A stretch of 64,000 nt of DNA from Gordonia sihwensis NBRC 108236. Its GTDB lineage: Bacteria > Actinomycetota > Actinomycetes > Mycobacteriales > Mycobacteriaceae. The translations under genes were made by a program, and so were the position numbers. Below are positions 5,732 through 62,330 of the stretch, one piece after another (within the stretch, counting starts at the first letter, position 1; each line of letters starts with the position of its first letter). Location: NCBI RefSeq assembly GCF_000333035.1, contig NZ_BANU01000015.1:62001-126000 (forward strand), read 5' to 3'. The notes beneath the pieces are model-generated. The model did no database searches. It had not been told where the DNA came from and saw only the letters and a program-made list of their open reading frames with translations.

Positions 5732-7792
5732 TCACGGCAAGCCCGCGGCGACCTCCGTGCCCTGCCGGATGGCGCGCTTGGCGTCGAGTTCGGACGCGAG
5801 GTCGGCACCGCCGATGACGTGGGTGATCACACCGGCCGCGGTCAGCGGGTCGACCAAGTCGCGCACCGATTCCTGACCGGCGCAGACGACGACGTTGTCC
5901 ACCTCGAGCAGGCGCTTGCCGACCTCGTTGCCCTCCTTGTCGTGCAGCGTGATGTGCAGGCCGGCGTCGTCGATCCTGTCGTAGGTGGCGCCGGAGATCT
6001 GTTCGACGCCCTTCATCTTGACCGCGGCACGATGCACCCAGCCGGTGGTCTTGCCGAGCGACTTGCCCTGCTTGCCCGGCTTGCGCTGCACCATGTACAC
6101 CTCGCGCACGGCGGGCATCGGCCTCGGCTCGGTCAGGAAGCCGGGAGTGTCGAGGTCGTCGGTGACGCCCCACTCCTGCTCCCATTCCTTGAGGTTCAGT
6201 GTCGGCGACTCATCGGTGGTGAGGAATTCGGTGACGTCGAATCCGATGCCGCCCGCACCGATGACGGCCACGCGCTTGCCGACCTCGCGGTGGCCGAGGA
6301 CCGCGTCGGCGTACGACATGACCATCGGGTGGTCGATGCCGTCGATCGCAGGCACGCGCGGGACCACGCCGGTCGCGACGATCACCTGGTCGTACCCGCC
6401 GTCGATGAGCTCCTGTGCGCCCACCCGGGTGTCGAGGTGAACGGCGACGTGGTTGATCTCGAGCTGGCGGGTGAAGTACCGGATGGTCTCGTTGAACTCC
6501 TCCTTGCCGGGGATGCGGGCGGCGATGGAGAACTGCCCGCCGATGGCCGGCCCGGCCTCGTAGAGGTCGACGCGGTGGCCGCGCTGCGCGGCGGAGACGG
6601 CCGCCGACAGCCCGGCGGGACCGGCTCCGACGACGGCCACCCGCTTGGCCGTGCGGGTGGCCCCCAGGGTGAGGACCGTCTCGCGGCCGGCGCGCGGGTT
6701 CAGCAGGCACGAGACCTTCTGACCGACGAAGGCGTGATCCAGGCACGCCTGATTGCAGCCGATGCACGTGTTGATCTCGTCGGCGCGGCCGGTGCGCGCC
6801 TTGTCGACGAACTCCGGGTCGGCCAGCAGCGGGCGGGCCATCGACACCGCGTCCACCTTGCCGCGCTCGAGGATCTCCTCGGCGAAGTCCGGGGTGTTGA
6901 TGCGGTTGGACGCGATCAGCGGGATGTCCACCACATCGCGCAGCCGCTCGGTGAACTTGACGAACGCGCCCCGCGGTACCGACGTCACGATCGTCGGTAC
7001 CTGGGCCTCGTGCCAGCCGATGTCGGTGTTGATGGCGTCGACGCCGTGTTCCTCGGCCCGCTTGGCGAGCAGTGCGATCTCGTCGAAGGTCTGTCCGTTC
7101 TTCACGAAGTCGGCGACGCTCTGGCGCAGGATGACCGGGAACTCGCGCGGCACCTTCCTGCGCACGTCCTTGATGATCTCGACGAGGAAGCGCTGACGGT
7201 TCTCGGTGCTGCCGCCCCACTTGTCGGTGCGGTCGTTGGTGTGCGGGCAGAGGAACTGGTTGATCAGGTATCCCTCGCCGCCCATCAGCTCGATCGCGTC
7301 GTAGCCGGCTCGGTGCGCGAGCTGCGCCGCGGTGCCGAATGAGCGGATCACATGCCAGATGATCTGCTCGGTCATCTTGAGGTGTTTGAACGGGTGAATC
7401 GGGCTCGGCTCGCTGCCGGCGGCGACCTTGAAGGGCGTATACCCGTAGCGCCCCGCGTGAATGATCTGCAAGGCGATCTTTCCGCCCTCGGCATGGACGG
7501 CCTTGGTGAACTCGCGGTGCCGGAGCACATCGGCACGGTTCGTCATCTTGCCCGCGAAGGGCAGCAGCTGTCCGGTGCGCGACGGTGCGAAACCGCCCGT
7601 GATGATGAGCCCGACGCCGCCGCGGGCGCGTTCGGCGTAGTAGGCGGCGAGTTTGGGCGTGTCCCACAACCGGTCCTCCAGGCCGGTGTGCATCGATCCC
7701 ATGACGACGCGGTTGTCGAGCGTGATCCCGCCGATCCGAAGCGGTTCGAACAGTCTGGGGAAGTGGGCGTTGGGCGCCGTCTGGGCTGTCAT
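5732..7792 (-). CDS. fadH: NADPH-dependent 2,4-dienoyl-CoA reductase
   Basis: A 686-residue iron-sulfur flavoprotein that reduces 2,4-dienoyl-CoA esters so that polyunsaturated fatty acids can enter beta-oxidation. An Old Yellow Enzyme FMN barrel fills about residues 1-340. It is followed by the 4Fe-4S cysteine cluster CIGCNQACLDH with a later Cys near residue 357, then an FAD domain starting VAVVGAGPAGLSAA (about 384) and an NADP domain with VAVIGAGGIGFD (about 505). The start is the ATG at 7792 behind an AAAGG site. The PadR gene lies just upstream on the same strand. Related family members reduce other enone compounds, so the exact substrate is inferred. Confidence 0.9.
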   Translation of the reverse strand: MTAQTAPNAHFPRLFEPLRIGGITLDNRVVMGSMHTGLEDRLWDTPKLAAYYAERARGGVGLIITGGFAPSRTGQLLPFAGKMTNRADVLRHREFTKAVHAEGGKIALQIIHAGRYGYTPFKVAAGSEPSPIHPFKHLKMTEQIIWHVIRSFGTAAQLAHRAGYDAIELMGGEGYLINQFLCPHTNDRTDKWGGSTENRQRFLVEIIKDVRRKVPREFPVILRQSVADFVKNGQTFDEIALLAKRAEEHGVDAINTDIGWHEAQVPTIVTSVPRGAFVKFTERLRDVVDIPLIASNRINTPDFAEEILERGKVDAVSMARPLLADPEFVDKARTGRADEINTCIGCNQACLDHAFVGQKVSCLLNPRAGRETVLTLGATRTAKRVAVVGAGPAGLSAAVSAAQRGHRVDLYEAGPAIGGQFSIAARIPGKEEFNETIRYFTRQLEINHVAVHLDTRVGAQELIDGGYDQVIVATGVVPRVPAIDGIDHPMVMSYADAVLGHREVGKRVAVIGAGGIGFDVTEFLTTDESPTLNLKEWEQEWGVTDDLDTPGFLTEPRPMPAVREVYMVQRKPGKQGKSLGKTTGWVHRAAVKMKGVEQISGATYDRIDDAGLHITLHDKEGNEVGKRLLEVDNVVVCAGQESVRDLVDPLTAAGVITHVIGGADLASELDAKRAIRQGTEVAAGLP

Positions 7793-7846
7793 TGGGCGAC
7801 CTTTCTCGTTGTGGGTATCGGTGGGATGCAGTGGTTTCTGTGGAAT

Positions 7847-8419
7847 TCAGTGCTGCGGGGCGGCGACGGCGGCAGAGCGCTCGAGTTCGCGCTGGAAGCG
7901 GTCGAGCACCTCGTCGCACCAGTCGACGGTCTGCTCGCTCATCCGGACCCCGCCGCGGAGCACCAGGTACTGGTTCAGCTTGCGTCCGGACAAGGCATCG
8001 GGATCGGGGTAGTACTGCTCCACCCATCCCCGATACACCTCGAGCATCGCGGCGGCCTCGTCGCGGTGGGCGCGGAGTTCGGCCATCACCGTCGGCAGGT
8101 CGCCGAGATCGGCGGCGCGCAGCTTGACTCCGAGATCGCTGCGCAGCGGCGGGAGCGGCGTCGGGCTGTTCACCCACTCGGCGAGCATGTCGCGTCCCGC
8201 CTGCGAGAGCGTGTACACCTTCTTGTCCGGGCGGCCGTCCTGTGCCACGGATTCGAAGCTCACCAGCCCGTCGGAGTGCAGCTTCTTGAGCGTCCGATAG
8301 ATCTGCTGGTGCGTAGCCGACCAGAAGTATCCGATCGACCGCGAGAACTGCTGCCCGATCTCGTACCCGGTCCCGGGCCGCTCGGAGAGCGAGACGAGGA
8401 TCGCGTGCTCGAGTGCCAT
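7847..8419 (-). CDS. PadR-family transcriptional regulator
   Basis: A 190-residue PadR-like repressor (subfamily with a C-terminal Vir-type coiled coil). The N-terminal winged helix runs from ALEHAILVSLSERPGTGYEIGQQF through the recognition segment QQIYRTLKKLHSDGLV, followed by a wing (PDKKVYTLSQAGR) and a helical dimerisation tail. I chose the ATG at 8419, where homologues start; the frame is open upstream into the operator. Such proteins bind palindromes near their own promoter, and one lies 31 bases upstream. Likely targets are itself, fadH and the divergent SMP-30-like gene. The inducer is unknown. Confidence 0.88.
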   Translation of the reverse strand: MALEHAILVSLSERPGTGYEIGQQFSRSIGYFWSATHQQIYRTLKKLHSDGLVSFESVAQDGRPDKKVYTLSQAGRDMLAEWVNSPTPLPPLRSDLGVKLRAADLGDLPTVMAELRAHRDEAAAMLEVYRGWVEQYYPDPDALSGRKLNQYLVLRGGVRMSEQTVDWCDEVLDRFQRELERSAAVAAPQH

Positions 8420-8449
8420 GCGTGACACCGTAGCAATGCACCTTAGTTC

Positions 8450-8483
8450 TATGCAATAGGGTTCATATGAACTCCGATGCATA
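8450..8483. promoter_or_regulatory. Palindromic operator between padR and the SMP-30-like gene
   Basis: A 34-base imperfect palindrome is centred at 8466.5. The core GTTCATATGAAC (8461-8472) is perfect, and outer arms TATGCA (8450-8455) and TGCATA (8478-8483) share the same centre. Thirteen of 17 positions match between halves. It sits between the divergent starts at 8419 and 8535. The ATGCA/TGCAT arms resemble PadR-type sites, so it is probably the PadR operator. Confidence 0.65.
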
Positions 8484-8534
8484 TAAAGCGGCGGGTCGGA
8501 CACACCGCCGCCGATTTGCTGCTAAGACTTGGCC

Positions 8535-9455
8535 GTGACCTCGTTTCGCCGCATCGCCCTTCCCGGAACCGCACCCGAGGACGTGATCTGCCTGCCCGAC
8601 GGGCGGGTCGTGACCGGACTCGACGACGGTCGTCTGCTGTCGGTGGAGCCGTCGACGGGGGAGATCAGCGTGCTGGCCGACACCGCCGGGCGGCTCCTCG
8701 GCCTCGACTACGGTGCCGACGGTTCGATCTACATCTGCGACCACGATCGCGGGCTGCTCGTCCTGGATCCGGATCGCTCGCGCGCACGAGTGCTCGTCGA
8801 CACGGTGGACGGCAGGCCGCTGCGGTTCGCCAGCAACGTCGCCCACGCCTCCGACGGAACGCTGTACTTCTCGTCGTCGTCTCAGAACTTCATGTTCGAC
8901 CGCTGGCGGGCGGACATCATCGAGCACTCCGGGACCGGCAGGCTCATGCGACTGTCGCCGAGCGGTGAGGTCCAGGTGCTGCGCGACGATCTGCAGTTCG
9001 CGAACGGCGTGGTCCTGGGCCCCGCCGAGGACTACGTGCTGGTCGCGGAGACGGGGGCCTCCCGGATCTCGCGGTACTGGCTCACCGGACCGGCGGCGGG
9101 CACCTCCGAGGTCTTCCTCGACGGTCTGGGCGGTTATCCGGACAACATGTCGATCGGCAGCGACGGGCGACTGTGGGTGGCGCTCGCCTCACCGCGGAAT
9201 GCTGTGCTGGAGGGCATCTTCCGGCTTCCGCTGCGGGCCCGGAAGGTGCTCGCGCGGGTCCCGCAGGGTGTCGGTCCGACGCCGGAGGAGGTGGTCTGGG
9301 TACAGGCCTTCGACTTCGACGGCACGATGGCCCGCGAGGTGCGGATCGACGACCTCGATTTCGGTTTCGTCACCGCCGTCGCGGAGCGCGACGGGGTCCT
9401 GTATCTCGGCACCATCCTCGGCAACGCGCTCGGCGTGCTCGACCTGCGCAGCTGA
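8535..9455 (+). CDS. SMP-30/gluconolactonase/strictosidine synthase-like beta-propeller protein
   Basis: A roughly 306-residue six-bladed beta-propeller protein. Repeated DG-x-hydrophobic blade motifs are visible (EDVICLPDGRVVTG, GADGSIYICD, ASDGTLYFSS, GSDGRLWVAL), together with the FANGVVLGP and YPDNMSIGSDG segments that are typical of the strictosidine synthase-like branch. Family members are calcium-dependent lactonases or esterases; the substrate here is unknown. Translation starts at the GTG at 8535 or at the TTG two codons earlier. The divergent PadR gene and shared operator suggest common control with fadH. The last 267 bases are antisense to the opposing ABC transporter frame. Confidence 0.8.
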   Translation: MTSFRRIALPGTAPEDVICLPDGRVVTGLDDGRLLSVEPSTGEISVLADTAGRLLGLDYGADGSIYICDHDRGLLVLDPDRSRARVLVDTVDGRPLRFASNVAHASDGTLYFSSSSQNFMFDRWRADIIEHSGTGRLMRLSPSGEVQVLRDDLQFANGVVLGPAEDYVLVAETGASRISRYWLTGPAAGTSEVFLDGLGGYPDNMSIGSDGRLWVALASPRNAVLEGIFRLPLRARKVLARVPQGVGPTPEEVVWVQAFDFDGTMAREVRIDDLDFGFVTAVAERDGVLYLGTILGNALGVLDLRS

Positions 9456-11123
9456 CACCCGGCGGATTCGTCCGTCCTCGAGTCGCACCACCTCGTCGGC
9501 GATCGCGGTCAGCCGCGAATCGTGAGTGATGAGCAGGGTGGTGCGTCCGCGGGCCAGTCGGCGCAGCGGCCCGATCACTCCGGCGACCGACTCGTCGTCG
9601 AGCGCGGCCGTCGGCTCGTCGAGGATCAGGACGGGCGTGTTCCGGAGCATCGCCCGCGCGATGGTGATCCGTCGGCGCTGTCCGCCGGACAGTTCCAAGC
9701 CGTCGCCGGCGAGCACGGTGTCGTATCCGTCCGGCAGCGCGGCGATGAACCGATGGGCGCCGGCGTCGCGCGCCGCCTCGATGATCTCCTCCCGGCCTGC
9801 CGTCGGACGGCCGAACGCGATGTTGTCGGCCACCGTCCCCGGCCGGATGTGGGCCGTCTGCGGCAGCAGCGTGACCTGTTCGCGGACCGACGCGCCGGTC
9901 ACCTCGGACACGTTGTGGCCGCCGACGGTGACGGTGCCGGACTCCGCATCCTCCAGCGCGCAGATCAGCGATGCGAGCGTCGACTTGCCGGTGCCGCTGG
10001 GGCCGATGAGAGCCGTGATGGCACCCGGCCGCAACTCCAGGTCGACGCCTCGGAGGATCTGCCTGCCGTCGTACGCGAAGCAGACGCCGTCGAGCCGCAC
10101 GGGCACGGGGGCGCCACTCGGGACCGGTGGCAGCGGCCGCGCGTCGCCGAGTTCGGCACGGTGCACCGGTTCGTCGAGGATCTCCGCGATCCGCTCGGCG
10201 CTCACGCATGCCTCGGCCACCGCGAGCCGCACGTCGGCGATCTGTTGGAGCTTGGGATACAGCATCGCCAGGTAGCCCGACAGTGCCAGCAGCTGGCCGA
10301 CGCTGAGTGCGCCCTCACGCACCTGCCAGACGCCGACGAGGGTGACGGTGAGTGACAGACACACCTGCGCGAAGCCGAGCACTCCGCCGAAGCCGGCTTC
10401 GATGCGGGTCTGCGACACCCGGGTGCGTGCCCATCGGCGGCCGTGGCGCTCCAGCTCGTCGGCCTCGTCGCGCTCGCGGTTGTACGCGACGGTGGTCTCG
10501 TGGCCGGCCAGCGCGGAGTAGACGGCATCGGCGATGTCACTGTTCGCGGCGCGCTCGGCGTGCGTCGTCCGGCTCTGGCGCCTCCCGAAGAACGACGAGA
10601 CCGCCCACAGGGCCGGGCATGCGGCCAGTGCGACCCCCGCGACGACCGGGCTCATGACGAACGCGGCAACGATCAGACCCAGCGCGTTGGCGGCCGCCAC
10701 CGCCAGGGACATCATCCCGGTGCCGATCAAGTGCTCGACGGCTTCCAGGTCGCTCGAATGCCGCACGACGAGGTCGCCGAGCCCGCGGCGCCGATGCGTG
10801 ATCGGCGCCAACCGCTGGACGTGCGCGAACAGAGCGGTGCGCAGCCGGAGCACCACACCTTCGGAGGCCACCGTCGACAGGAGGGTGCCGACGTAGTCGG
10901 CACCGACGCTGACCGCGGTCACGGCGAGCCACAGTGCGGCGAGACGCGCGAACGACTGCCAGTCGGAGGAACCGAGGGCACCGTCGACGACATCGGATAG
11001 GAAGAACACGCCGACGGCGTCGCATGCGGCTGCGACCAGTAGAAAGAATGCGGCACCGCTCAGTGCGACGCGATGTCCGGAGGCGAAATGGGAGAATCGG
11101 CGCATCGCGGTGAGAAATGTCAT
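9189..11123 (-). CDS. ABC exporter, fused membrane and ATPase domains
   Basis: A 644-residue half-size ABC exporter. Residues 1-320 hold about six membrane helices in the type I exporter arrangement. The ATPase domain has Walker A GPSGTGKST (about 373), signature LSGGQRRR (about 476) and Walker B VLILDEP (about 496). It would work as a homodimer to export a peptide, lipid or drug. An AGGAG site precedes the ATG at 11123. The domain should end near residue 556, but no stop occurs there. About 88 further residues are read antisense through the end of the SMP-30-like gene, so this tail is probably unstructured. Upstream on the same strand are a hairpin and a 45-codon Trp-rich frame, which may be its cargo or its control element. 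Confidence 0.88.
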   Translation of the reverse strand: MTFLTAMRRFSHFASGHRVALSGAAFFLLVAAACDAVGVFFLSDVVDGALGSSDWQSFARLAALWLAVTAVSVGADYVGTLLSTVASEGVVLRLRTALFAHVQRLAPITHRRRGLGDLVVRHSSDLEAVEHLIGTGMMSLAVAAANALGLIVAAFVMSPVVAGVALAACPALWAVSSFFGRRQSRTTHAERAANSDIADAVYSALAGHETTVAYNRERDEADELERHGRRWARTRVSQTRIEAGFGGVLGFAQVCLSLTVTLVGVWQVREGALSVGQLLALSGYLAMLYPKLQQIADVRLAVAEACVSAERIAEILDEPVHRAELGDARPLPPVPSGAPVPVRLDGVCFAYDGRQILRGVDLELRPGAITALIGPSGTGKSTLASLICALEDAESGTVTVGGHNVSEVTGASVREQVTLLPQTAHIRPGTVADNIAFGRPTAGREEIIEAARDAGAHRFIAALPDGYDTVLAGDGLELSGGQRRRITIARAMLRNTPVLILDEPTAALDDESVAGVIGPLRRLARGRTTLLITHDSRLTAIADEVVRLEDGRIRRVSAAQVEHAERVAEDGAEIQDPVALRDGGDETEIEVVDPHLAGHRAVEVEGLYPDHLLRRRTDTLRDPREHLPGPQRKPEDALQHSIPR

Positions 11124-11183
11124 TTGGGTGATCTCCTGTAATCTTTCGAATCGGACCGATTCTTCTTCAAAAGAAATGCCGAG

Positions 11184-11218
11184 GCGCCGGTCCCGGAATA
11201 CATTTCCGGGACCGGCGC
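11184..11218 (-). terminator. Terminator/attenuator hairpin between the small peptide frame and the ABC exporter
   Basis: A perfect 15-bp stem (11204-11218 with 11184-11198) and a 5-base loop are followed on the minus strand by a T-rich run with TTTCTTTT. This is a classic Rho-independent terminator, unusual for having a T-tract in this genome. It ends transcripts from the small frame 36 bases past its stop and would give only partial readthrough into the exporter gene. A second, weaker hairpin (a GGTGTG-AAC arm with GTTC-CACACC) lies directly after the small frame's stop. Confidence 0.8.
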
Positions 11219-11254
11219 ATCCGAGGGTGTGGAACCCGATCAGTTCACACCTGG

Positions 11255-11392
11255 TCAGCGGACCCAGATCCAGTACCAGCGGTGATTGCGGGCATCCCAG
11301 CGACGCTCACGACGCCGACGCGGAGCGGGGTGCGCGAATCCGAAGTTCTGACGGTTGTTCTGCTCGGGGCGGCGGTTGTTGTCGAATGCCAT
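11255..11392 (-). CDS. Small Arg/Trp-rich peptide (45 residues), possible exported peptide precursor or leader peptide
   Basis: This short frame starts with ATG 8 bases after a good AAGGAG site and encodes 45 residues. An Asn/Gln-rich front (MAFDNNRRPEQNNRQNFGF) is followed by an Arg block (PRRRRERRW) and a highly aromatic end, RNHRWYWIWVR. Four of the 45 residues are Trp, three of them in the last seven positions. Codons are native, high in G/C at position three. A strong terminator follows, then the ABC exporter. I do not recognise a family. It could be a secreted or modified peptide carried by the exporter, or a leader peptide whose Trp codons control readthrough. No maturation enzyme is visible nearby. 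Confidence 0.6.
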   Translation of the reverse strand: MAFDNNRRPEQNNRQNFGFAHPAPRRRRERRWDARNHRWYWIWVR

Positions 11393-11696
11393 GTCATTCT
11401 CCTTATCCGGTCGGCTCGGCGGCTATTTCCGCTCGCGTATCTCGCGTCCGACACAGATGAATTTATGGACCCCGTCTGTGGAGGATCTGGCGCGCGACTG
11501 GCAGCATTCTGGGAACATCTCGGAACCGTCGGAACTGCGGCATTCCGCCGTGTTTCAGGCTGCTCACACGGCTCCCCGCATGTCGGTGAGGGCTTCATTA
11601 CGCGCCCGTGATCGCCGCGGCGACCGCCCGCAACACCGCCTGCCTAGCGTCGATCGCGACCCGGTCGAATGCCCGGGCGGACGAAGGAGGCACCGC
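11393..11696. other. Divergent intergenic region between the small peptide frame and narK
   Basis: About 300 bases separate the divergent starts. For the minus-strand unit, TAAATT (within GGTCCATAAATTCAT, near 11461) fits the actinobacterial TANNNT -10 pattern, with no good -35. The arms CACAGA (11452-11457) and TCTGTG (11475-11480) bracket it and may be an operator. The narK side contains the AAGGAGG site at 11684-11690. I see no further gene here. Confidence 0.4.
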
Positions 11697-13103
11697 GTGC
11701 GGATGGGACCAGCTCACACCCGACCCCGAGAACGACGAGCAGTATTCGCGTCGAGGACGATCACCGACTGGGATCCGGAGGACACCGCGGCATGGGAGGC
11801 GGGCGGATCGGCGATCGCGCGGCGCAACCTGATCTGGTCGGTGGTCGCCGAGCACGTCGGATTCTCCGTCTGGACGCTGTGGTCGGTGATGGTGCTGTTC
11901 ATGCCGTCGGACGTCTACGGCATCTCGGCGGGGGACAAGTTCCTCATCGGAGCCGTGGCCACCCTCACCGGGTCTCTGCTGCGTTTCCCGTACACCCTGG
12001 CGACATCGCGATTCGGCGGCCGCAACTGGACGGTCTTCTCGGCCGTCGTGCTGACCGTGCCGGTGACGGCGACGATCGTCCTTCTCGCGAATCCGGGTCA
12101 GCCGCTCTGGGTGTACCTGCTGTGCGCCGCACTCGCCGGGTTCGGCGGCGGCAACTTCGCGTCGTCGATGACGAACATCAACGCTTTCTATCCGCAGCGC
12201 CTCAAGGGCTGGGCCCTCGGTCTGAACGCGGGCGGCGGCAACCTCGGGGTGCCCGCGGTGCAGTTGGTGGGACTGCTGGTGATCGCGTGGACCGGGGTCG
12301 GCGAACCGTACTGGGTGTGCGCGGTCTACCTCGTGCTGCTCGCGGTGGCCGGGCTCGGCGCCGCGCTCTTCATGGACAACCTCGAGGGGCCGGGCGTGGA
12401 CCTGTCCGCGATGCGGTCGGCGATCACCGACCGCGACACGTGGCTGATCTCGCTGCTCTACATCGGGACTTTCGGCTCGTTCATCGGGTTCTCTTTCGCC
12501 TTCTCGCAGGTACTGGCGCTGAACTTCCTCGACCGCGGCGACACCGCGGCGCAGGCCTCACTGCACGCCGCGCAGATCGCCTTCATCGGCCCGCTCCTCG
12601 GGTCGGTGGCACGGGTGTACGGCGGCAGGCTCGCCGACCGGATCGGCGGCAGCCGAGTGACGCTCGGGGTGTTCGCCGGCATGGTCGGCGCCGCGGCCGT
12701 CCTCCTGGTGGGCTCGTCCCTCGAGGTTCAGGTGGTGGGCTTCGTGGCGCTCTTCGTGCTCTCCGGGATGGGGAACGGCTCGGTGTACAAGATCATCCCG
12801 TCGGTGTTCGACGCGAAGTCCCGCGCGCTGCCGCTCGACGAGGACGGGCGGGCGGCGTACTCGCGAGCCATGTCTGGAGCGGTGATCGGGATCGCGGGCG
12901 CGGTCGGCGGACTCGGCGGCGTCGGGATCAACATGGTGCTGCGACAGTCGTATCTGAGCTCCGGGTCGGCGACCGTCGCGGTGGTGGTCTTCGCCGCCTT
13001 CTATCTCGTCGCCGCGGCCGTCACCTGGCGGGCGTACGTCGGAGTGCCGCGCGCGGCGGCCGATGCGCCCGGCGCACCGCAGTCTGCGAAGCTGTCTTCA
13101 TGA
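11697..13103 (+). CDS. narK: Nitrate/nitrite transporter, NNP family of the MFS
   Basis: A 468-residue, roughly 12-helix major facilitator of the nitrate/nitrite porter family. Family blocks are present: the N-terminal DWDPEDTAAWEAGG, RNLIWSVVAEHVGFSVW in helix 1, GFGGGNFASSMTNINAFYP near helix 5 and GLNAGGGNLGV. It brings nitrate into the cytoplasm, or exchanges it for nitrite, for the assimilatory enzymes encoded downstream. I chose the GTG at 11697 because AAGGAGG ends 6 bases before it; the frame is open well upstream but looks non-coding there. The stop overlaps the next start (ATGA), so it is coupled to the HemD-like gene. Confidence 0.92.
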   Translation: MRMGPAHTRPRERRAVFASRTITDWDPEDTAAWEAGGSAIARRNLIWSVVAEHVGFSVWTLWSVMVLFMPSDVYGISAGDKFLIGAVATLTGSLLRFPYTLATSRFGGRNWTVFSAVVLTVPVTATIVLLANPGQPLWVYLLCAALAGFGGGNFASSMTNINAFYPQRLKGWALGLNAGGGNLGVPAVQLVGLLVIAWTGVGEPYWVCAVYLVLLAVAGLGAALFMDNLEGPGVDLSAMRSAITDRDTWLISLLYIGTFGSFIGFSFAFSQVLALNFLDRGDTAAQASLHAAQIAFIGPLLGSVARVYGGRLADRIGGSRVTLGVFAGMVGAAAVLLVGSSLEVQVVGFVALFVLSGMGNGSVYKIIPSVFDAKSRALPLDEDGRAAYSRAMSGAVIGIAGAVGGLGGVGINMVLRQSYLSSGSATVAVVVFAAFYLVAAAVTWRAYVGVPRAAADAPGAPQSAKLSS

Positions 13104-14242
13104 GTTCTGCCACCACCGGCGACCGGTCGGCCCCGCCCTCGCTGGCGGGGTTCACCGTCGCCGTCACCGCAGCGCGCCGAGCTGAGGAGCTCGGCGCGCT
13201 GCTCATGCGACGAGGCGCACGAGTGGTCGCCGCACCGGCGATCGAGATGGTGCCGCTGGCCGACGACCCGGCGTTGCGCGCGGGCACCGATGCGGTGATC
13301 GCGAAGCCGCCGGATCTGCTGATCCCGACGACCGGAATCGGCTTCCGCGGGTGGATCGAGGCCGCGGACGAATGGGGGCTGGCCGACGAGCTGATGGGCG
13401 CCTTCGCCGGCGCGCGCATCCTTTCGCGCGGGCCGAAGGTGACCGGGGCGTTGCGTGCGGCGGGATTGCGCGAGGAATGGTCGCCCGAGTCGGAGTCGTC
13501 GGCCGAAGTGCTGGCGCACCTGAGCCCCGACGACGTCGCCGGTCGGCGAGTGGCGGTTCAGCTGCACGGTGCGATCGACGGTTGGGACCCGAACCGCGAC
13601 TTCGTCGACGGTCTCATCGCGATGGGAGCCGATGTCGTCTCCGTGCCGGTCTACAGCTGGCGCCGGCCCGCCGATCTCGGCGACTTCGATGCGCTGATCC
13701 ACGACGTCGCCGCCCGCCGGCTGGACGCGGTGACCTTCACCTCCGGTCCGGCCGCCGTGTCGATGCTGACGCGATCGACTCAGCTGGGCGTGCGCGAGCC
13801 GTTCGTCTCCGCACTCCGGGAGGCGGTCGCCGTCTACTGCGTGGGCCCGGTGACCGCCGCGCCGCTCGAGCTGGCGGGGGTCGCCGCGCGCTGGCCGGAG
13901 CGGATGCGGCTCGGCGCGCTGGCGCGGCTCGTGGCCGAGGATCTGCCGGTCCGGGAGTCCGAACTCGCGGTGGCCGGGCACCGCCTCGGCGTGCATGCCT
14001 CGGCGGTGGTGGTCGACGGAGAGGTCCGTGACGTGCCCGCGTCGGCGCTGCGTCTGCTCAAGGCCCTCGCTCAGCGGCCGGGCACGGTGGTGTCGCGCAC
14101 CGATCTGCTCGCGGTGATCGGCGCGGGTGACGAACATGCGGTGGAGGTGGCGATCGGCAGGCTCCGGACCGCGCTGGGATGCCGCGAGATGATCGCGACG
14201 GTCGTCAAACGCGGCTACCGGCTGGCACTGGACGAGCAGTGA
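13100..14242 (+). CDS. HemD-like uroporphyrinogen-III synthase domain fused to an OmpR-type winged helix
   Basis: A 380-residue two-domain protein. Residues about 10-270 resemble uroporphyrinogen-III synthase, with two alternating Rossmann-like lobes and segments such as PTTGIGFRGW, VAVQLHGAIDG and AVTFTSGPAAVSML. Residues about 285-378 form an OmpR/PhoB-type winged helix (PASALRLLKALAQRPGTVVS, TVVKRGYRL). It matches the regulator-like HemD gene next to narK3 in M. tuberculosis (Rv0260c), as I recall it. A likely role is sensing a tetrapyrrole or siroheme intermediate to control nitrate or nitrite genes; catalysis is possible but unproven. The start overlaps the narK stop. Its last 38 bases overlap the convergent cbiX gene. 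Confidence 0.85.
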   Translation: MSSATTGDRSAPPSLAGFTVAVTAARRAEELGALLMRRGARVVAAPAIEMVPLADDPALRAGTDAVIAKPPDLLIPTTGIGFRGWIEAADEWGLADELMGAFAGARILSRGPKVTGALRAAGLREEWSPESESSAEVLAHLSPDDVAGRRVAVQLHGAIDGWDPNRDFVDGLIAMGADVVSVPVYSWRRPADLGDFDALIHDVAARRLDAVTFTSGPAAVSMLTRSTQLGVREPFVSALREAVAVYCVGPVTAAPLELAGVAARWPERMRLGALARLVAEDLPVRESELAVAGHRLGVHASAVVVDGEVRDVPASALRLLKALAQRPGTVVSRTDLLAVIGAGDEHAVEVAIGRLRTALGCREMIATVVKRGYRLALDEQ

Positions 14243-14924
14243 ACTCGCCGGCCGAGTCGATCCGGCCGCAGGCCGCGTCGACGACCGGTGCCGCGAGGCC
14301 GAGGGGGCGGGCGACGACGTCGGCCCCCGAGTCGTCCAGGCGCTGCTGAAACAGCCCGTCGGCGAGCAGGTACGACGCCACCGCGATCCGGCGTCCGGGT
14401 GTGTCCGCACGGAGGGCGGCGACGGTGTCCGGGACCGATGCGTGAGGCGAGTCCGCGCGGGTGCTCGCGAATGCGATGCGGACCGGTGTGGCCAGCCGCG
14501 CGGACAGCAGGTGCGCGGTGGTCTCGATGTCCCGCTGCGCCACCGGGTCCGCGGAGCCGGCCGCGGCCAGGACGACGGCGTCATCGCTCGTCGCCCCGGC
14601 CTCGGCCAGGCGGATCGTGAGCGCCCGGGTCAACAGCTGAGACGGTCCCAGTGCCGGGGCCAGCCGCACCGGCCGGCGGGCCGCGGCCAGGTGCGCGGCG
14701 ATGTCGACCCGCACGTGGTGTCCGCGCGCCAGGAACGCGGGCAGCACCGTGACCGGGCCGTCGGGCAGATCGGGGAGCAGGTCGCTCGGCGAGGGCCCGA
14801 CGACGTCGACGAAGCTCACCGCCACCGGCTCGTCCCGGCGGCGTCCGATCTCGTCGGCGAGCCGATAGATCAGTTCCACGCCCCGTGGGTCGCGGGTGCC
14901 GTGCGCGACGAGCAGGACGGTCAT
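14205..14924 (-). CDS. Sirohydrochlorin chelatase (CbiX/SirB-like)
   Basis: A 239-residue chelatase-fold protein expected to insert Fe2+ into sirohydrochlorin, the last step in making the siroheme that nitrite reductase needs. The N-terminal LLVAHGTRDPRG carries the catalytic His, and a second repeat contains VVLAAAGSADPVAQRD. DLPDGPVTVLPAFLARGHHVRVD is the other conserved block. The start ATG overlaps the nirD stop (ATGA), so it is the last gene of the nitrite reductase operon. A cobalt chelatase is the alternative, but context favours iron. Confidence 0.87.
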   Translation of the reverse strand: MTVLLVAHGTRDPRGVELIYRLADEIGRRRDEPVAVSFVDVVGPSPSDLLPDLPDGPVTVLPAFLARGHHVRVDIAAHLAAARRPVRLAPALGPSQLLTRALTIRLAEAGATSDDAVVLAAAGSADPVAQRDIETTAHLLSARLATPVRIAFASTRADSPHASVPDTVAALRADTPGRRIAVASYLLADGLFQQRLDDSGADVVARPLGLAAPVVDAACGRIDSAGEFTARPVPAGSRV

Positions 14925-15352
14925 CGCGGGCTCGCCGGCGAACTCGTGGCGGCCCTGAAGCCCTCGGGCCGGAAGCCGAACCGGATGTCGGGGGAGTTCG
15001 CCACGAATACGGTCCCGTCGAGCCCGATGCGGGTGCCGTACACCGGGATCCGCACTCCGGGGGAATCGAGGCAGCGTCCGTCGATGAGGCTGAACGCCTC
15101 CTTCTTCAAGGGCGAGGCGACCACCGGGAAACCGTTCCGGTCGCCGACGATGCCGCGCGACATCACCGCGGCACGCGCGATCGGATCGATGTTGCCCACC
15201 GCGCGGAGCGTGTCGTCGGCGAGCCGGAACAGCGCCACCTGCGCGCCGTCCGGCAGCAGCACGGCCACGCCGCGCAGGCGGTCGAGCCGGTCGATGTGGC
15301 ACGCGGCGGTCCAGTCGCGGGTCCAACGGTGGAGGTCGAAGGCGAGGGTCAT
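14921..15352 (-). CDS. nirD: Assimilatory nitrite reductase small subunit, NirD-type
   Basis: A 143-residue Rieske-like-fold subunit of NADH-dependent nitrite reductase. The NirD blocks are clear: VAVLLPDGAQVALFRL, VGNIDPIARAAVMSRGIVGD and VVASPLKKEAFSLIDGRCLD. As usual for NirD, the Cys-His pairs that bind the 2Fe-2S cluster in true Rieske proteins are absent. It starts at the ATG at 15352 with an AAAGG site, 46 bases after nirB, and overlaps the cbiX start by 4 bases. Confidence 0.93.
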   Translation of the reverse strand: MTLAFDLHRWTRDWTAACHIDRLDRLRGVAVLLPDGAQVALFRLADDTLRAVGNIDPIARAAVMSRGIVGDRNGFPVVASPLKKEAFSLIDGRCLDSPGVRIPVYGTRIGLDGTVFVANSPDIRFGFRPEGFRAATSSPASPR

Positions 15353-15398
15353 GACAGACCTTTCAGGTGTGTTCGGGGGGCGGGCGGAACGGGCCGGT

Positions 15399-17918
15399 TC
15401 ACGACTGCGGCAGCGCGGGCGAACCGAGCAGGACCGGAACTCGGCGCCCGTGGCTCTCGCCGAAGGCGACCGTCGGGTCGGGAACGCCGGGCGCGTTGAC
15501 GAAGGAGACGAACCGCCGGAGCTTGTCCGGGTCGTCGAGGACGCCCTTCCATTCGCATTCGTAGGCGTCGACGTGGCGGGCCATGTCGGCTTCGAAGTCG
15601 TCGGCCAGACCCAGCACGTCGTCGACCACGACGGCCTTGAGCCGATCGATGCCGCCGTCGAGTCCGTCGAGCCAGGCGGCGGTGCGCTGAAGTCGTTCGG
15701 CCGTGCGGATGTAGTACATGAGGAAACGGTCGATGTAGGCGACGAGGGTGGCATCGTCCAGGTCGCCGGCCAGGAGCTGCGCGTGCCTGGGAGTCATGCC
15801 TCCGTTGCCGCCGACGTACAGATTCCAGCCCTTCTCGGTGGCGATGACGCCGACGTCCTTCCCGCGGGCCTCGGCGCACTCGCGGGCACAGCCCGAGACG
15901 CCCATCTTGATCTTGTGCGGCGACCGCAGCCCGCGGTACCGCAGTTCCAGATCGATCGCCATCCGAACGGAGTCCTGCTGACCGTACCGGCACCAGTCGG
16001 AGCCGACGCAGCTCTTCACGGTCCGCAGCGACTTTCCGTAGGCGTGGCCCGACTCCATCCCGGCGTCCACCAGGCGCCGCCAGATCAGCGGCAGCTGGTC
16101 GACGGTGGCACCGAACATGTCGATGCGCTGACCGCCGGTGATCTTGGTGTACAGACCGAAGTCGCGGGCGATCTCGCCGATCAGAATCAGCTGTTCGGGC
16201 GTGACGTCGCCGCCCGGCATCCGCGGGACCACCGAATAGGTGCCGTTGCGCTGGATGTTCGCCAGGAAGTGATCGTTCGAATCCTGCAGCGAGGCCTGCT
16301 CGCCGTCGAGGATGTGGCCCGAGCCGATCGACGCCAGAATGGACGCGACCGTCGGCTTGCAGATGTCGCAGCCGGTGCCGGTGCCGAACCGTTCGACGAT
16401 GCCGGAGAAGGTCCGGATGTCGCAGGCCCTGATCGTCTCGAACAGCTCGGCGCGCGACTGCGCGAAGTGCTCGCACAGGGCGGTCGACTGCTCGACTCCC
16501 TCCTCGGCCAGGATCTGCGACAGCAGCGGAACGCACGAGCCGCACGACGTGCCCGCGCCGGTGCAGCCCTTGAGGGCCGCCACATCGCATGCGCCGTCGG
16601 CGATCGCGGCGCACAGCGTGCCCTTGCTGACGTCGTTGCACGAACAGATCTGCGCGTCGTCGCCGAGCGCGCCCACCCCGAGGGCCGGTGCGTCGCCGGC
16701 CGGGCTGATCAGACTCACCGGGTCTCCCGGCAGGCTCGATCCCACCAGCGGGCGCAGGAGGCCGTATGCGCTCGCGTCGCCGACGAGCACGCCGCCGAGC
16801 AGGGTGGACGCGTCGTCGGACAGCACGAGCTTGGCGTAGACGCCGCCGATCGGGTCCGAGACCACCACGTCGAGCGCTCCGGGAGTGGCGCTCAGCGCGT
16901 CGCCGAAGCTGGCGACGTCGACGCCGAGCAGTTTGAGCTTGGTGGACATGTCGGCGCCGGGGAACACCGCAGAGCCGCCCAGCAGCCGGTCGGCGACCAC
17001 CTCGGCGGTGGCGTAGCCGGGGGCCACGAGGCCGTAGCAACGACCGTCGATCGCCGCGACCTCGCCGATCGCGTAGATCGACGGGTCGCTGGTGGCACAG
17101 CGCTCGTCGGTGAGGATCCCGCCCCGTTCGGCAACCGCGAGACCGCAGTCGCGGGCGAGTTCGTCGCGGGGACGGACCCCGGCGGCGAACACCAGGAGTG
17201 CGGCGTCGACCACCGTGCCGTCGGCGAGTGTGACACGCACGCCGGCGTCGCCGGGCTCGATGGACTCGGTGCCCGACGAGAGGGACACCTCGATCCCGAG
17301 TTCGCCGATCATCCGGGCCAGGTGCTCGCCGCCCCCGGCGTCCACCTGCTGAGGCATCAGCCTCGGGTTGATCTCCACCACGTGAGGCGCCAGACCCATC
17401 AATCGAAGAGCGTTGGCGGCTTCGAGTCCGAGGAGCCCGCCGCCGACCACCATGCCGACCGGCGCGGTGCGGGCATCGCGCGCGAGGGCCCGCTCCGCGT
17501 CGGCGCGGATGGCGTCCAGATCGTCGAGGGTCCGGTAGACGTGGCAGCCCGGCGTCTCGTGTCCCGGGACCGGCGGCACGAAGGCTCGCGATCCGGTCGC
17601 CATCACCAGCGCGTCGTAGGCGATCTCGGCGCCCGAAGCGGTTCGCACCACGCGACGGTCGCGGTCGATCGCGACGACGGCGTCCCCGACCCGCAACTCC
17701 ACGGCGTCGTCGCCGTCGTAGCGGTTGCCCGCCAGCGCCAGCTCGGCCCGCTCCCAGGAGCCGACGTATCCCGAGAGCCCCACGCGGTCGTACGCGGGGT
17801 CGGTCTCCTCGCCGAGCACCACCACTCGCCATCCGCCGTCGACGTCCCGGGCGCGAAGTGCCTCGACGAAGCGGTGCCCGACCATTCCGTGTCCGATGAC
17901 CACCACGGTTTCGCTCAT
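15399..17918 (-). CDS. nirB: Assimilatory nitrite reductase large subunit, NirB-type
   Basis: An 839-residue cytoplasmic siroheme enzyme that reduces nitrite to ammonium with NAD(P)H. An FAD/NADH reductase fills the first 400 residues (start VVVIGHGMVGHRFVEAL). It is followed by a BFD-type 2Fe-2S domain (CSCNDVSKGTLC with a later CTGAGTSCGSC) and by the sulfite/nitrite reductase ferredoxin-like and 4Fe-4S/siroheme domains, whose ligands lie in CVGSDWCRYG and SGCARECAE. The length is standard. The start ATG at 17918 follows CTGGAG. It belongs to the operon nasA-nirB-nirD-cbiX. Confidence 0.95.
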   Translation of the reverse strand: MSETVVVIGHGMVGHRFVEALRARDVDGGWRVVVLGEETDPAYDRVGLSGYVGSWERAELALAGNRYDGDDAVELRVGDAVVAIDRDRRVVRTASGAEIAYDALVMATGSRAFVPPVPGHETPGCHVYRTLDDLDAIRADAERALARDARTAPVGMVVGGGLLGLEAANALRLMGLAPHVVEINPRLMPQQVDAGGGEHLARMIGELGIEVSLSSGTESIEPGDAGVRVTLADGTVVDAALLVFAAGVRPRDELARDCGLAVAERGGILTDERCATSDPSIYAIGEVAAIDGRCYGLVAPGYATAEVVADRLLGGSAVFPGADMSTKLKLLGVDVASFGDALSATPGALDVVVSDPIGGVYAKLVLSDDASTLLGGVLVGDASAYGLLRPLVGSSLPGDPVSLISPAGDAPALGVGALGDDAQICSCNDVSKGTLCAAIADGACDVAALKGCTGAGTSCGSCVPLLSQILAEEGVEQSTALCEHFAQSRAELFETIRACDIRTFSGIVERFGTGTGCDICKPTVASILASIGSGHILDGEQASLQDSNDHFLANIQRNGTYSVVPRMPGGDVTPEQLILIGEIARDFGLYTKITGGQRIDMFGATVDQLPLIWRRLVDAGMESGHAYGKSLRTVKSCVGSDWCRYGQQDSVRMAIDLELRYRGLRSPHKIKMGVSGCARECAEARGKDVGVIATEKGWNLYVGGNGGMTPRHAQLLAGDLDDATLVAYIDRFLMYYIRTAERLQRTAAWLDGLDGGIDRLKAVVVDDVLGLADDFEADMARHVDAYECEWKGVLDDPDKLRRFVSFVNAPGVPDPTVAFGESHGRRVPVLLGSPALPQS

Positions 17919-18085
17919 CGACTCCAGGTCCTTCCACTCGAGTTCGCAGCCGATCCGTTCGGCTCGGAAGCGACGTTACGAACGGGGTGTTGCGATGCCG
18001 CTCGGGTCGCGTTGCGGTCAGATGACGAGTCCCGCACCGGGTTTCGAGCATGTTTCGAGTCGGGGGGGGCGACGGGGGTGCGGCT

Positions 18086-61040: not shown

Positions 61041-62330
61041 GTGGCGCGAATGGGAGACGGTGGTGACCTCCTGAAGTGCTCTTTCTGCGGCAAGAGCCAG
61101 AAACAGGTCAAGAAGCTCATCGCAGGTCCGGGGGTGTACATCTGTGACGAGTGCATCGACCTCTGCAACGAGATCATCGAGGAGGAACTCGCCGAGACCA
61201 GCGATGTGAAGCTCGACGAGTTGCCCAAGCCCGCGGAGATCCGGGACTTCCTGGACAACTATGTGGTGGGCCAGGATTCGGCCAAGCGCACCCTCGCGGT
61301 GGCCGTCTACAACCACTACAAGCGCATCCAGGCGGGTGAGAAGAAGTCCGGCGACAAGCGCTCGTCCGCGGTGGAGCCCGTGGAACTGGCGAAGTCGAAC
61401 ATCCTCATGCTCGGCCCCACGGGCTGCGGCAAGACGTACCTGGCGCAGACCCTCGCGAAGATGCTCAACGTCCCGTTCGCGATCGCGGACGCCACCGCAC
61501 TGACCGAGGCCGGCTACGTGGGCGAGGACGTCGAGAACATCCTCCTGAAGCTGATCCAGGCCGCCGACTACGACGTCAAGCGGGCCGAGACCGGCATCAT
61601 CTACATCGACGAGGTCGACAAGATCGCCCGCAAGAGCGAGAACCCGTCGATCACCCGCGACGTGTCGGGCGAGGGCGTGCAGCAGGCGCTGCTGAAGATC
61701 CTGGAGGGAACGCAGGCCAGCGTGCCGCCGCAGGGCGGCCGCAAGCATCCCCATCAGGAGTTCATCCAGATCGACACGACCAATGTGCTCTTCATCGTCG
61801 CGGGTGCGTTCGCCGGCCTCGAGAAGGTGGTCGACGAGCGGATCGGCAAGCGCAGCATCGGCTTCGGCAACGACGTCCCGAGTAAGGACAAGGTCGACAC
61901 GACCGACCACTTCGCCGAGGTGATGCCCGAGGATCTGATCAAGTTCGGTCTGATCCCCGAGTTCATCGGGCGCCTGCCGGTGGTCGCATCGGTCGCGAAC
62001 CTCGACAAGGAGGCGCTGGTCTCGATTCTGTCGGAGCCCAAGAACGCGCTCGTCAAGCAGTACGTGCGCCTGTTCGAGATGGACAACGTCGAACTCGAGT
62101 TCAGTCAGGACGCGCTCGAAGCAGTGGCCGACCAGGCGATCCACCGGGGAACCGGAGCGCGTGGTCTGCGGGCCATCATGGAAGAGGTACTGCTGCCGGT
62201 GATGTACGACATTCCGAGCCGCGACGATGTGGCCAAGGTGGTCGTCACGGGGGAGACGGTGCGCGACAACGTGCTGCCGACCATCGTGCCGCGCAGCGAA
62301 GACGAGGGGCCGCGCGAGAAGTCGGCCTGA
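61041..62330 (+). CDS. clpX: ATP-dependent Clp protease ATPase subunit ClpX
   Basis: A 429-residue AAA+ unfoldase. The N-terminal zinc-binding domain uses Cys13, Cys16, Cys35 and Cys38 ([19 protein letters not shown]). Walker A is [12 protein letters not shown], Walker [13 protein letters not shown] and the sensor and pore-loop region is [11 protein letters not shown]. The IGF-type ClpP-binding loop reads RSIGFGND. The start is GTG 61041. It recognises substrates and feeds them to ClpP1P2. Length is normal. Confidence 0.97.

Follow-up and report, generated by a model that had tools for sequence, protein, structure and literature searches.

A conserved family of cysteine-free Arg/Trp-rich peptides in Gordonia and relatives, linked to an ABC exporter gene and to a PhoP-type promoter element

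A short frame ahead of an ABC exporter

In Gordonia sihwensis NBRC 108236, a 45-codon frame rich in arginine and tryptophan codons lies ahead of a terminator and an ABC exporter gene, which raises the question of whether this frame is a gene at all and, if so, what its product or its translation has to do with the exporter. A 45-codon frame by itself is unremarkable, and ABC exporters of such a type are often drug or lipid pumps. An earlier note, made from the sequence of the window (the whole stretch of 64,000 nt analyzed here, positions 62,001 to 126,000 of contig NZ_BANU01000015.1), had described an AAGGAG site, the 45-codon frame, a small hairpin, a 15-bp terminator, and an ABC exporter with its own AGGAG site, and had offered either peptide export or Trp-codon attenuation as explanations. 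Every one of these parts is indeed present, with peptide frame, terminator, and exporter all on the minus strand of the window:

11476..11511, minus strand: PhoP-box-like element, four CAG at 11-bp spacing (CCAG-N7-CCAG-N7-CCAG-N7-ACAG)
11461..11468, minus strand: weak -10-like box CCATAAAT, read from the sequence
11404-11399, minus strand: ribosome-binding site AAGGAG, read from the sequence; a Shine-Dalgarno-like match occurs in 44 of the 45 family copies
11392-11255, minus strand, ATG at 11392: gene for a 45-residue Arg/Trp-rich peptide without Cys, product MAFDNNRRPEQNNRQNFGFAHPAPRRRRERRWDARNHRWYWIWVR up to the stop
11261..11314, minus strand: codons 27-44, predicted by AlphaFold2 to form a two-stranded beta-hairpin that bears the conserved Arg and Trp
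about 11251-11226, minus strand: small hairpin 3' of the stop, from RNA folding of the window
11169..11218, minus strand: terminator with perfect 15-bp arms (11218-11204 and 11198-11184), a 5-nt loop, and a T-rich tail (11176-11169)
9189..11123, minus strand: ABC exporter of 644 aa, TMD-NBD, with ATG at 11123 after AGGAG (Pfam ABC_membrane and ABC_tran)

The -10-like box is graded as weak because TANNNT after the repeats was found in only 18 of the 45 copies. RNA folding of the window locus alone gives a z of -2.46. A perfect inverted repeat, GAATCGG-T-CCGATTC, occupies 11148-11162, past the terminator tail and ahead of the exporter start.

The frame belongs to a conserved, previously undescribed family

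The 45-residue frame proves to be a genuine gene, and its product belongs to a conserved and previously undescribed peptide family. The window peptide is 64% and 56% identical to peptides of two congeners (E 3e-11 and 4e-9), and a 24-row profile matches 36 of the 59 genomes of the genus at E <= 0.01; this conservation across congeners and genus genomes makes the frame more than a product of chance. Among the 36, G012 gives a partial match (E 0.0046) and was discounted as a peptide genome, G005 (E 0.0025) was counted once its locus had been read, and the peptide of G021 (E 0.0023) was confirmed at the exporter locus of that genome (L129). The profile missed G034, whose peptide came to light when the region ahead of its exporter was read (L130).

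The same profile matches 57 of 401 genomes of the family, the convincing ones in six genera (g1, g34, g39, g43, g45, and g57); beyond the named genera, matches with E above about 1e-3 have the look of chance hits and we make no claim for them, and as only 18 first-look candidates per genome were scored, distant members could escape. For the detailed analyses we assembled 45 copies from 40 fetched regions and the window, picked from the genus and family profile matches, a set that spans Gordonia, Williamsia, Tsukamurella, and relatives; one further copy (L086), which escaped the pattern and was recognized by eye, stands outside the 45.

A wider spread found no support at the depth searched. A search of 397 genomes of the order, with about 19 first-look candidates scored per genome so that distant members could escape, returned seven matches at E <= 0.001, six of them within the window's family; the other one (G684) is confined to positions 9-30 and lacks the Trp end. 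Scanning named genomes with a DNA pattern, which fits 31 of the 45 copies, gave 36 stretches: 31 in Gordonia, 2 in Williamsia, 1 in Tsukamurella, 1 labeled Acidobacteriaceae, and 1 in Rhodobacteraceae. The last of these (L160) was rejected, the peptide being absent from the three frames read. The sequence labeled Acidobacteriaceae bacterium BOG_194 (L147) holds two tandem family members and is apparently the contig of G290, a genome of the window's family, and its label looks wrong. A phage or plasmid origin found no support in tblastn searches of phages and plasmids with the window peptide (no match at E <= 10), and none of the 208 stretches of viral contigs that fit the pattern was confirmed.

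That the conserved thing is the protein is indicated by the invariant arginines, which are written with different codons (CGC, CGT, CGG, CGA, or AGG at fixed places); together with the conservation, these synonymous codons rule out a chance frame. For 43 copies (903 pairs), the two whose core is one residue shorter having been omitted, the peptide core gives pN 0.25 and pS 0.54, values that are only indicative as pS is near saturation. The earlier note knew of no described family for this peptide, and this held: searches of Pfam, NCBIfam, and PHROGs with 46 family rows returned one isolated weak match each and no family that covers the peptide, and the part of the literature covered by our searches (Trp-motif strings, and Gordonia small peptides, bacteriocins, precursor peptides, and PhoP) yielded no description of it. 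As none of the three collections holds a model, the family may go unnoticed in annotation.

A cationic peptide with a predicted C-terminal hairpin

All 45 copies are short (33-46 aa), carry a net charge of +8 to +12 and no Cys, and contain at least three Trp; GG occurs in only two of them, and neither a leader nor a double-glycine site was found among the 45. By eye, no transmembrane segment is evident in these highly charged peptides. The N-terminus is variable, of low complexity, and mostly rich in Asn, Gln, and Pro, and is followed by a conserved C-terminus, RRRRxRxWDxRxRRWxWxWx-stop. With the 45 copies aligned, the three C-terminal Trp at alternating positions are the sole fully invariant columns; Arg stands at fixed sites, an earlier aromatic position is taken by W, F, or Y, and the last Trp lies one residue before the stop in 38 of 45 copies.

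AlphaFold2, given 46 aligned rows, models the N-terminus with low confidence and predicts a hairpin for the C-terminus, with strands at residues 27-33 and 38-44, no helix, and a mean pLDDT of 96 over residues 31-40. The sequences of solved structures hold no match to the peptide at E <= 10. From the strand ends in the model we infer a register in which residue 32 would pair with 39, 30 with 41, and 28 with 43. If so, R28, R30, W32 (W/F/Y), W39, W41, and W43 would share one face of the hairpin as an Arg/Trp ladder, and the variable positions 31 and 40 would lie on the opposite face.

The exporter is the constant neighbor

Pfam finds no peptidase domain among its matches to the exporter, and of its 25 best NCBIfam profiles, which are led by general MsbA-like models, none reaches the cut-off. 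Its best relatives of solved structure are P-glycoprotein-like and MsbA/Sav1866-type pumps, so that the exporter's sequence alone names no substrate.

An ortholog of the exporter (E <= 1e-140) is encoded in 31 of the 59 genus genomes, and the peptide is found in all 31 of these versus 5 of the 28 without the exporter (Fisher p 7e-12). It should be noted that the exporter genomes received an extra look, by upstream reading, which the exporter-less ones did not; the profile search alone, equal for both groups, gives 30 of 31 versus 5 of 28 (p 3e-10), and both Fisher values overstate independence, the genomes being related. The earlier note had named a lack of conservation in relatives that keep the exporter as evidence against its idea, and the opposite was found. 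The five exporter-less genomes with a peptide (G005, G006, G010, G016, and G057) are a lower bound, given that the profile missed the exporter-linked G034, and show that the exporter is not obligatory or that another transporter serves there.

In 28 of the 31 genomes the peptide gene lies directly upstream of the exporter (27 of 30 upstream regions read, plus G042 by coordinates). The remaining three (G055, G003, and G028) have no peptide at the exporter and orphan copies elsewhere, and their kind of locus (L122, L125, and L126), from which the peptide is absent and at which the promoter element is kept, amounts to a natural deletion experiment.

The linkage recurs across six genera, and thus strongly supports the layout of small peptide gene, terminator, and exporter to which the earlier note had drawn attention. 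Linked exporters are 47-73% identical to that of the window in five genera and 38-40% in the sixth, of Tsukamurella type, where the peptide accompanies such an ABC gene at L086, L088, and L092. At L088 and L092 the ABC protein that follows the peptide is 38-39% identical to the window's, and the 14-nt gap between the genes is probably due to a start called too early, given the hairpin located at 54 nt. In other genera, the pair occurs among other neighbors (L081-L084, L089, and L090). The exporter is preceded by two or three peptide genes in tandem at L078, L081, and L082, and in the linked loci of every genus it is the one neighbor whose position is fixed. A sister ABC subfamily, 37-40% identical, was rejected as a general partner: 600 nt upstream were read at its loci in G005, G006, G010, G012, G057, G290, and G264, and the peptide was present at just one of the seven, that of G264 (Tsukamurella, L179).

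A phased CAG element shared with phoP

Upstream of the peptide genes, CAG repeats at 11-bp spacing were found within 200 nt of 42 of the 45 copies; 100 shuffles that preserve dinucleotides gave a mean of 4.3 and a maximum of 9. These regions show no signal at spacings of 10 or 12, and are also enriched at 22 and 33. The same element precedes both kinds of copy, at 23 of 25 linked and 19 of 20 orphan copies. In its stringent form of four repeats, the pattern has a single match in the 4.14-Mb genome of this strain, at the window locus, and none for the reversed control. Across six genomes it gives 22 matches versus 12 for the reversed control, and is therefore not specific by itself. Peptide loci account for five of the 22; the remaining 17 were all examined, and three of them precede response-regulator genes and three glycosyltransferase genes.

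In mycolic-acid bacteria, PhoP has a central place in the regulation of the envelope and of stress. The response regulator of G058 can be named as PhoP from its best matches, which are PhoP chains in solved structures (E about 6e-119); the gene in G036 is its ortholog, confirmed by search, and that of G104 is alike by eye. A phoP ortholog is encoded in 59 of 59 genus genomes, and CAG at spacing 11 precedes phoP at all 30 loci read (shuffle mean 3.6, maximum 8), as it also does in the genome of the window; upstream of phoP, spacings of 12 and 14 are likewise raised over the shuffles (11 and 18 of 30). The PhoP box is a direct repeat, TCACAGC-N4-TCACAGC, with an 11-bp period, according to PMC4832192. 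The recurring TCACAG-N5-CTCCCAGC-like repeats in these phoP upstream regions agree with that box. The peptide genes share with the PhoP regulon of Mycobacteriales both its 11-bp direct repeat and the element that precedes phoP itself. On sequence grounds, the peptide family is very likely part of the PhoP regulon. The part of the PhoP-regulon literature covered by our search, together with searches for Trp-motif strings, yielded no target resembling the peptide.

The three glycosyltransferase genes (L203, with GT2 and GtrA domains by scan, and L210 and L211, alike by eye) carry the element shortly before the start and are candidates for a further PhoP target.

Terminators and orphan copies

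The exporter follows 25 of the 45 copies; the other 20 are orphans, and for 13 of these the next gene is convergent. A stem of 10 bp or more, with up to one mismatch, lies within 120 nt of 21 of the 25 linked and 18 of the 20 orphan copies, so that 39 of 45 have a terminator-like stem versus a mean of 2 and a maximum of 5 in 20 shuffles; the hairpin sequences vary widely from copy to copy. As orphan and linked copies alike have such stems, the terminator has the appearance of a normal 3' end for a single-gene transcript.

These figures bear on the suggestion that the frame is a Trp attenuator or uORF controlling the exporter, which is not supported as a general function. An attenuator should have a regulated gene directly 3' of every copy, and 20 of 45 copies lack one; with 13 of these facing a convergent gene, cis-attenuation cannot be the general role of the family, and the peptide product must act in trans, at least for the orphans. 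The three exporter loci that keep the promoter without the peptide likewise speak against it as a general mechanism. The same three loci, in which the phased element is kept right before the exporter, suggest that transcription of the exporter normally comes from this promoter via read-through, and partial read-through of the terminator into the exporter gene is likely. A search for named RNA families (Rfam, window 9000-14000, E <= 1) gave three sub-threshold matches, none of them on the element.

Possible function and its alternatives

We give about an even chance to the whole of the following chain, in which the family comprises PhoP-regulated cationic peptides that are exported or served by their own ABC transporter, with the exporter co-transcribed by read-through; our confidence in the gene, in its linkage to the exporter, and in the shared box is higher than in the chain as a whole. 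PhoP would bind the phased box and direct a short mRNA, most of which would end at the strong hairpin past the frame, and a minority of transcripts would run through into the exporter gene, yielding much peptide and little exporter. The peptide, with a flexible N-terminus and a disulfide-free beta-hairpin as its C-terminus, presenting a putative Arg/Trp ladder on one face, would be carried from the cytoplasm by the ABC protein without a double-glycine leader or a protease. Once exported, it might act in the envelope or on neighbors, and the orphan paralogs would be further substrates for the same exporter.

Somewhat more tentatively, such peptides could form a new class in mycolic-acid bacteria: cysteine-free, unmodified beta-hairpins stabilized by an Arg/Trp ladder across the strands, under PhoP control, with a dedicated exporter in most genomes and orphan paralogs that use this exporter, serving as an envelope-directed antimicrobial or signal. 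Neither an immunity gene nor a processing gene linked to the peptide was found, only the single ABC gene. PhoP-linked paralogous peptides with their own exporter appear to be a concrete output of this regulator in environmental relatives, and, if exported, they would be simple linear cysteine-free Arg/Trp hairpins that can be synthesized and assayed directly.

The conservation of the C-terminus also fits an exporter partner, a nucleic-acid binder, or a ribosome-arrest (nascent-chain) module, and each was weighed. An intracellular peptide that is a subunit, gate, or stabilizer of the ABC exporter, with orphans acting on the same or other membrane proteins, would account for the tight co-occurrence and adjacency with one exporter subfamily, for the apparent lack of a leader and a maturation gene, and for a conserved Arg/Trp face suited to acidic or membrane surfaces; we nevertheless regard it as unlikely, given that tandem and orphan copies exceed the number of exporters in several genomes, that five peptide genomes have no such exporter, and that the short, highly charged peptides have no transmembrane segment evident by eye. 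The conserved Arg run and the cationic nature of all 45 copies recall arginine-rich nucleic-acid-binding peptides such as phage lambda N, which binds RNA as a helix, and a peptide of this kind could work in trans, for instance on the strong hairpins that follow 39 of 45 copies, orphan or linked. These hairpins, however, differ widely in sequence among the copies, the columns that are fully invariant are the three C-terminal Trp and not the Arg run, and the model is a beta-hairpin rather than the helix of lambda N, so that we consider this quite improbable.

For a leader peptide acting in cis, whose translation or stalling at the Trp-rich end would control the terminator and hence the exporter, one can cite the frame's position ahead of terminator and exporter, the proximity of the last Trp to the stop, and a variable N-terminus joined to a conserved C-terminus as in arrest peptides. 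The layout is that of TnaC-like leaders, with a small frame, Trp near its stop, before a terminator and a transport gene; the orphan copies and the peptide-less exporter loci that keep the promoter element are unlike them. In addition, codons for W, F, and Y all occur at the first aromatic position, the Arg codons vary, and among the Rfam matches at E <= 1 in window 9000-14000 none reaches gathering level. We hold such control to be very unlikely as the explanation of the family, although the peptide may have an additional leader role at the exporter loci. The remaining alternative, a precursor of a ribosomally made and modified peptide (RiPP), was suggested by the aromatic-rich C-terminal end of a small precursor next to an exporter, features shared with tryptorubin, the atropopeptides, and other P450-modified, aromatically crosslinked peptides. 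In contrast to these, no cluster of maturation enzymes recurs beside the peptide in the 40 fetched regions and the window, a minority of whose neighbors were scanned by profile, and the putative core is constant and the N-terminus variable, the reverse of usual RiPP precursors; this origin seems highly improbable.

Relation to known peptides

If the preferred reading, an exported peptide under PhoP control, is taken as the starting point, two groups of known peptides invite comparison. The tachyplesins and arenicins of animals are two-stranded hairpins likewise rich in Arg and Trp/Tyr; they are disulfide-linked, whereas the peptides of this family are bacterial, have no Cys in 45 of 45 copies, and combine a long low-complexity N-terminus with linkage to an exporter. 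Leaderless bacteriocins of the aureocin A53 class have a compact helical fold, in contrast to the disordered N-terminus and beta-hairpin modeled here, and the phased PhoP-type promoter and the orphan paralogs set the present family further apart. As the predicted fold differs, the peptide was not filed as a leaderless bacteriocin.

All 45 copies are nonetheless small, cationic, and Trp-rich without a leader, and 28 of 31 exporter genes are linked to a peptide, as expected of that class. Aureocin A53 has 51 residues with five Trp and is leaderless, with ABC transport genes nearby, according to PMC11580447. In being small, strongly cationic, Trp-rich, and leaderless with ABC transport genes near, aureocin A53 and lacticin Q resemble the family, and leaderless bacteriocins such as aureocin A53 are its nearest working analogue. 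The names Gordonia and Tsukamurella are absent from the main text of PMC11580447.

Other genes at the loci

In the window, positions 5732-8503, downstream of the exporter, encode an Oxidored_FMN oxidoreductase and a PadR regulator; counting the window, 13 loci of the genus have both near the exporter, as against none of the loci fetched from other genera. On the other side, positions 11669-18000 hold a NarK-like MFS gene and a gene with HEM4 (HemD) and Trans_reg_C domains, as well as unscanned genes resembling those for sirohydrochlorin chelatase, NirD, and NirB; synteny of this NarK region with the peptide-exporter pair recurs in several Gordonia. A large synthetase-like cluster is present in 5 of 41 regions, with no fixed place. 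The same short gene, whose product contains MFYQPCIPPNTGNAIRLAANTG and is probably a tRNA methyltransferase, immediately follows an orphan peptide gene in each of two genomes (L065 and L254).
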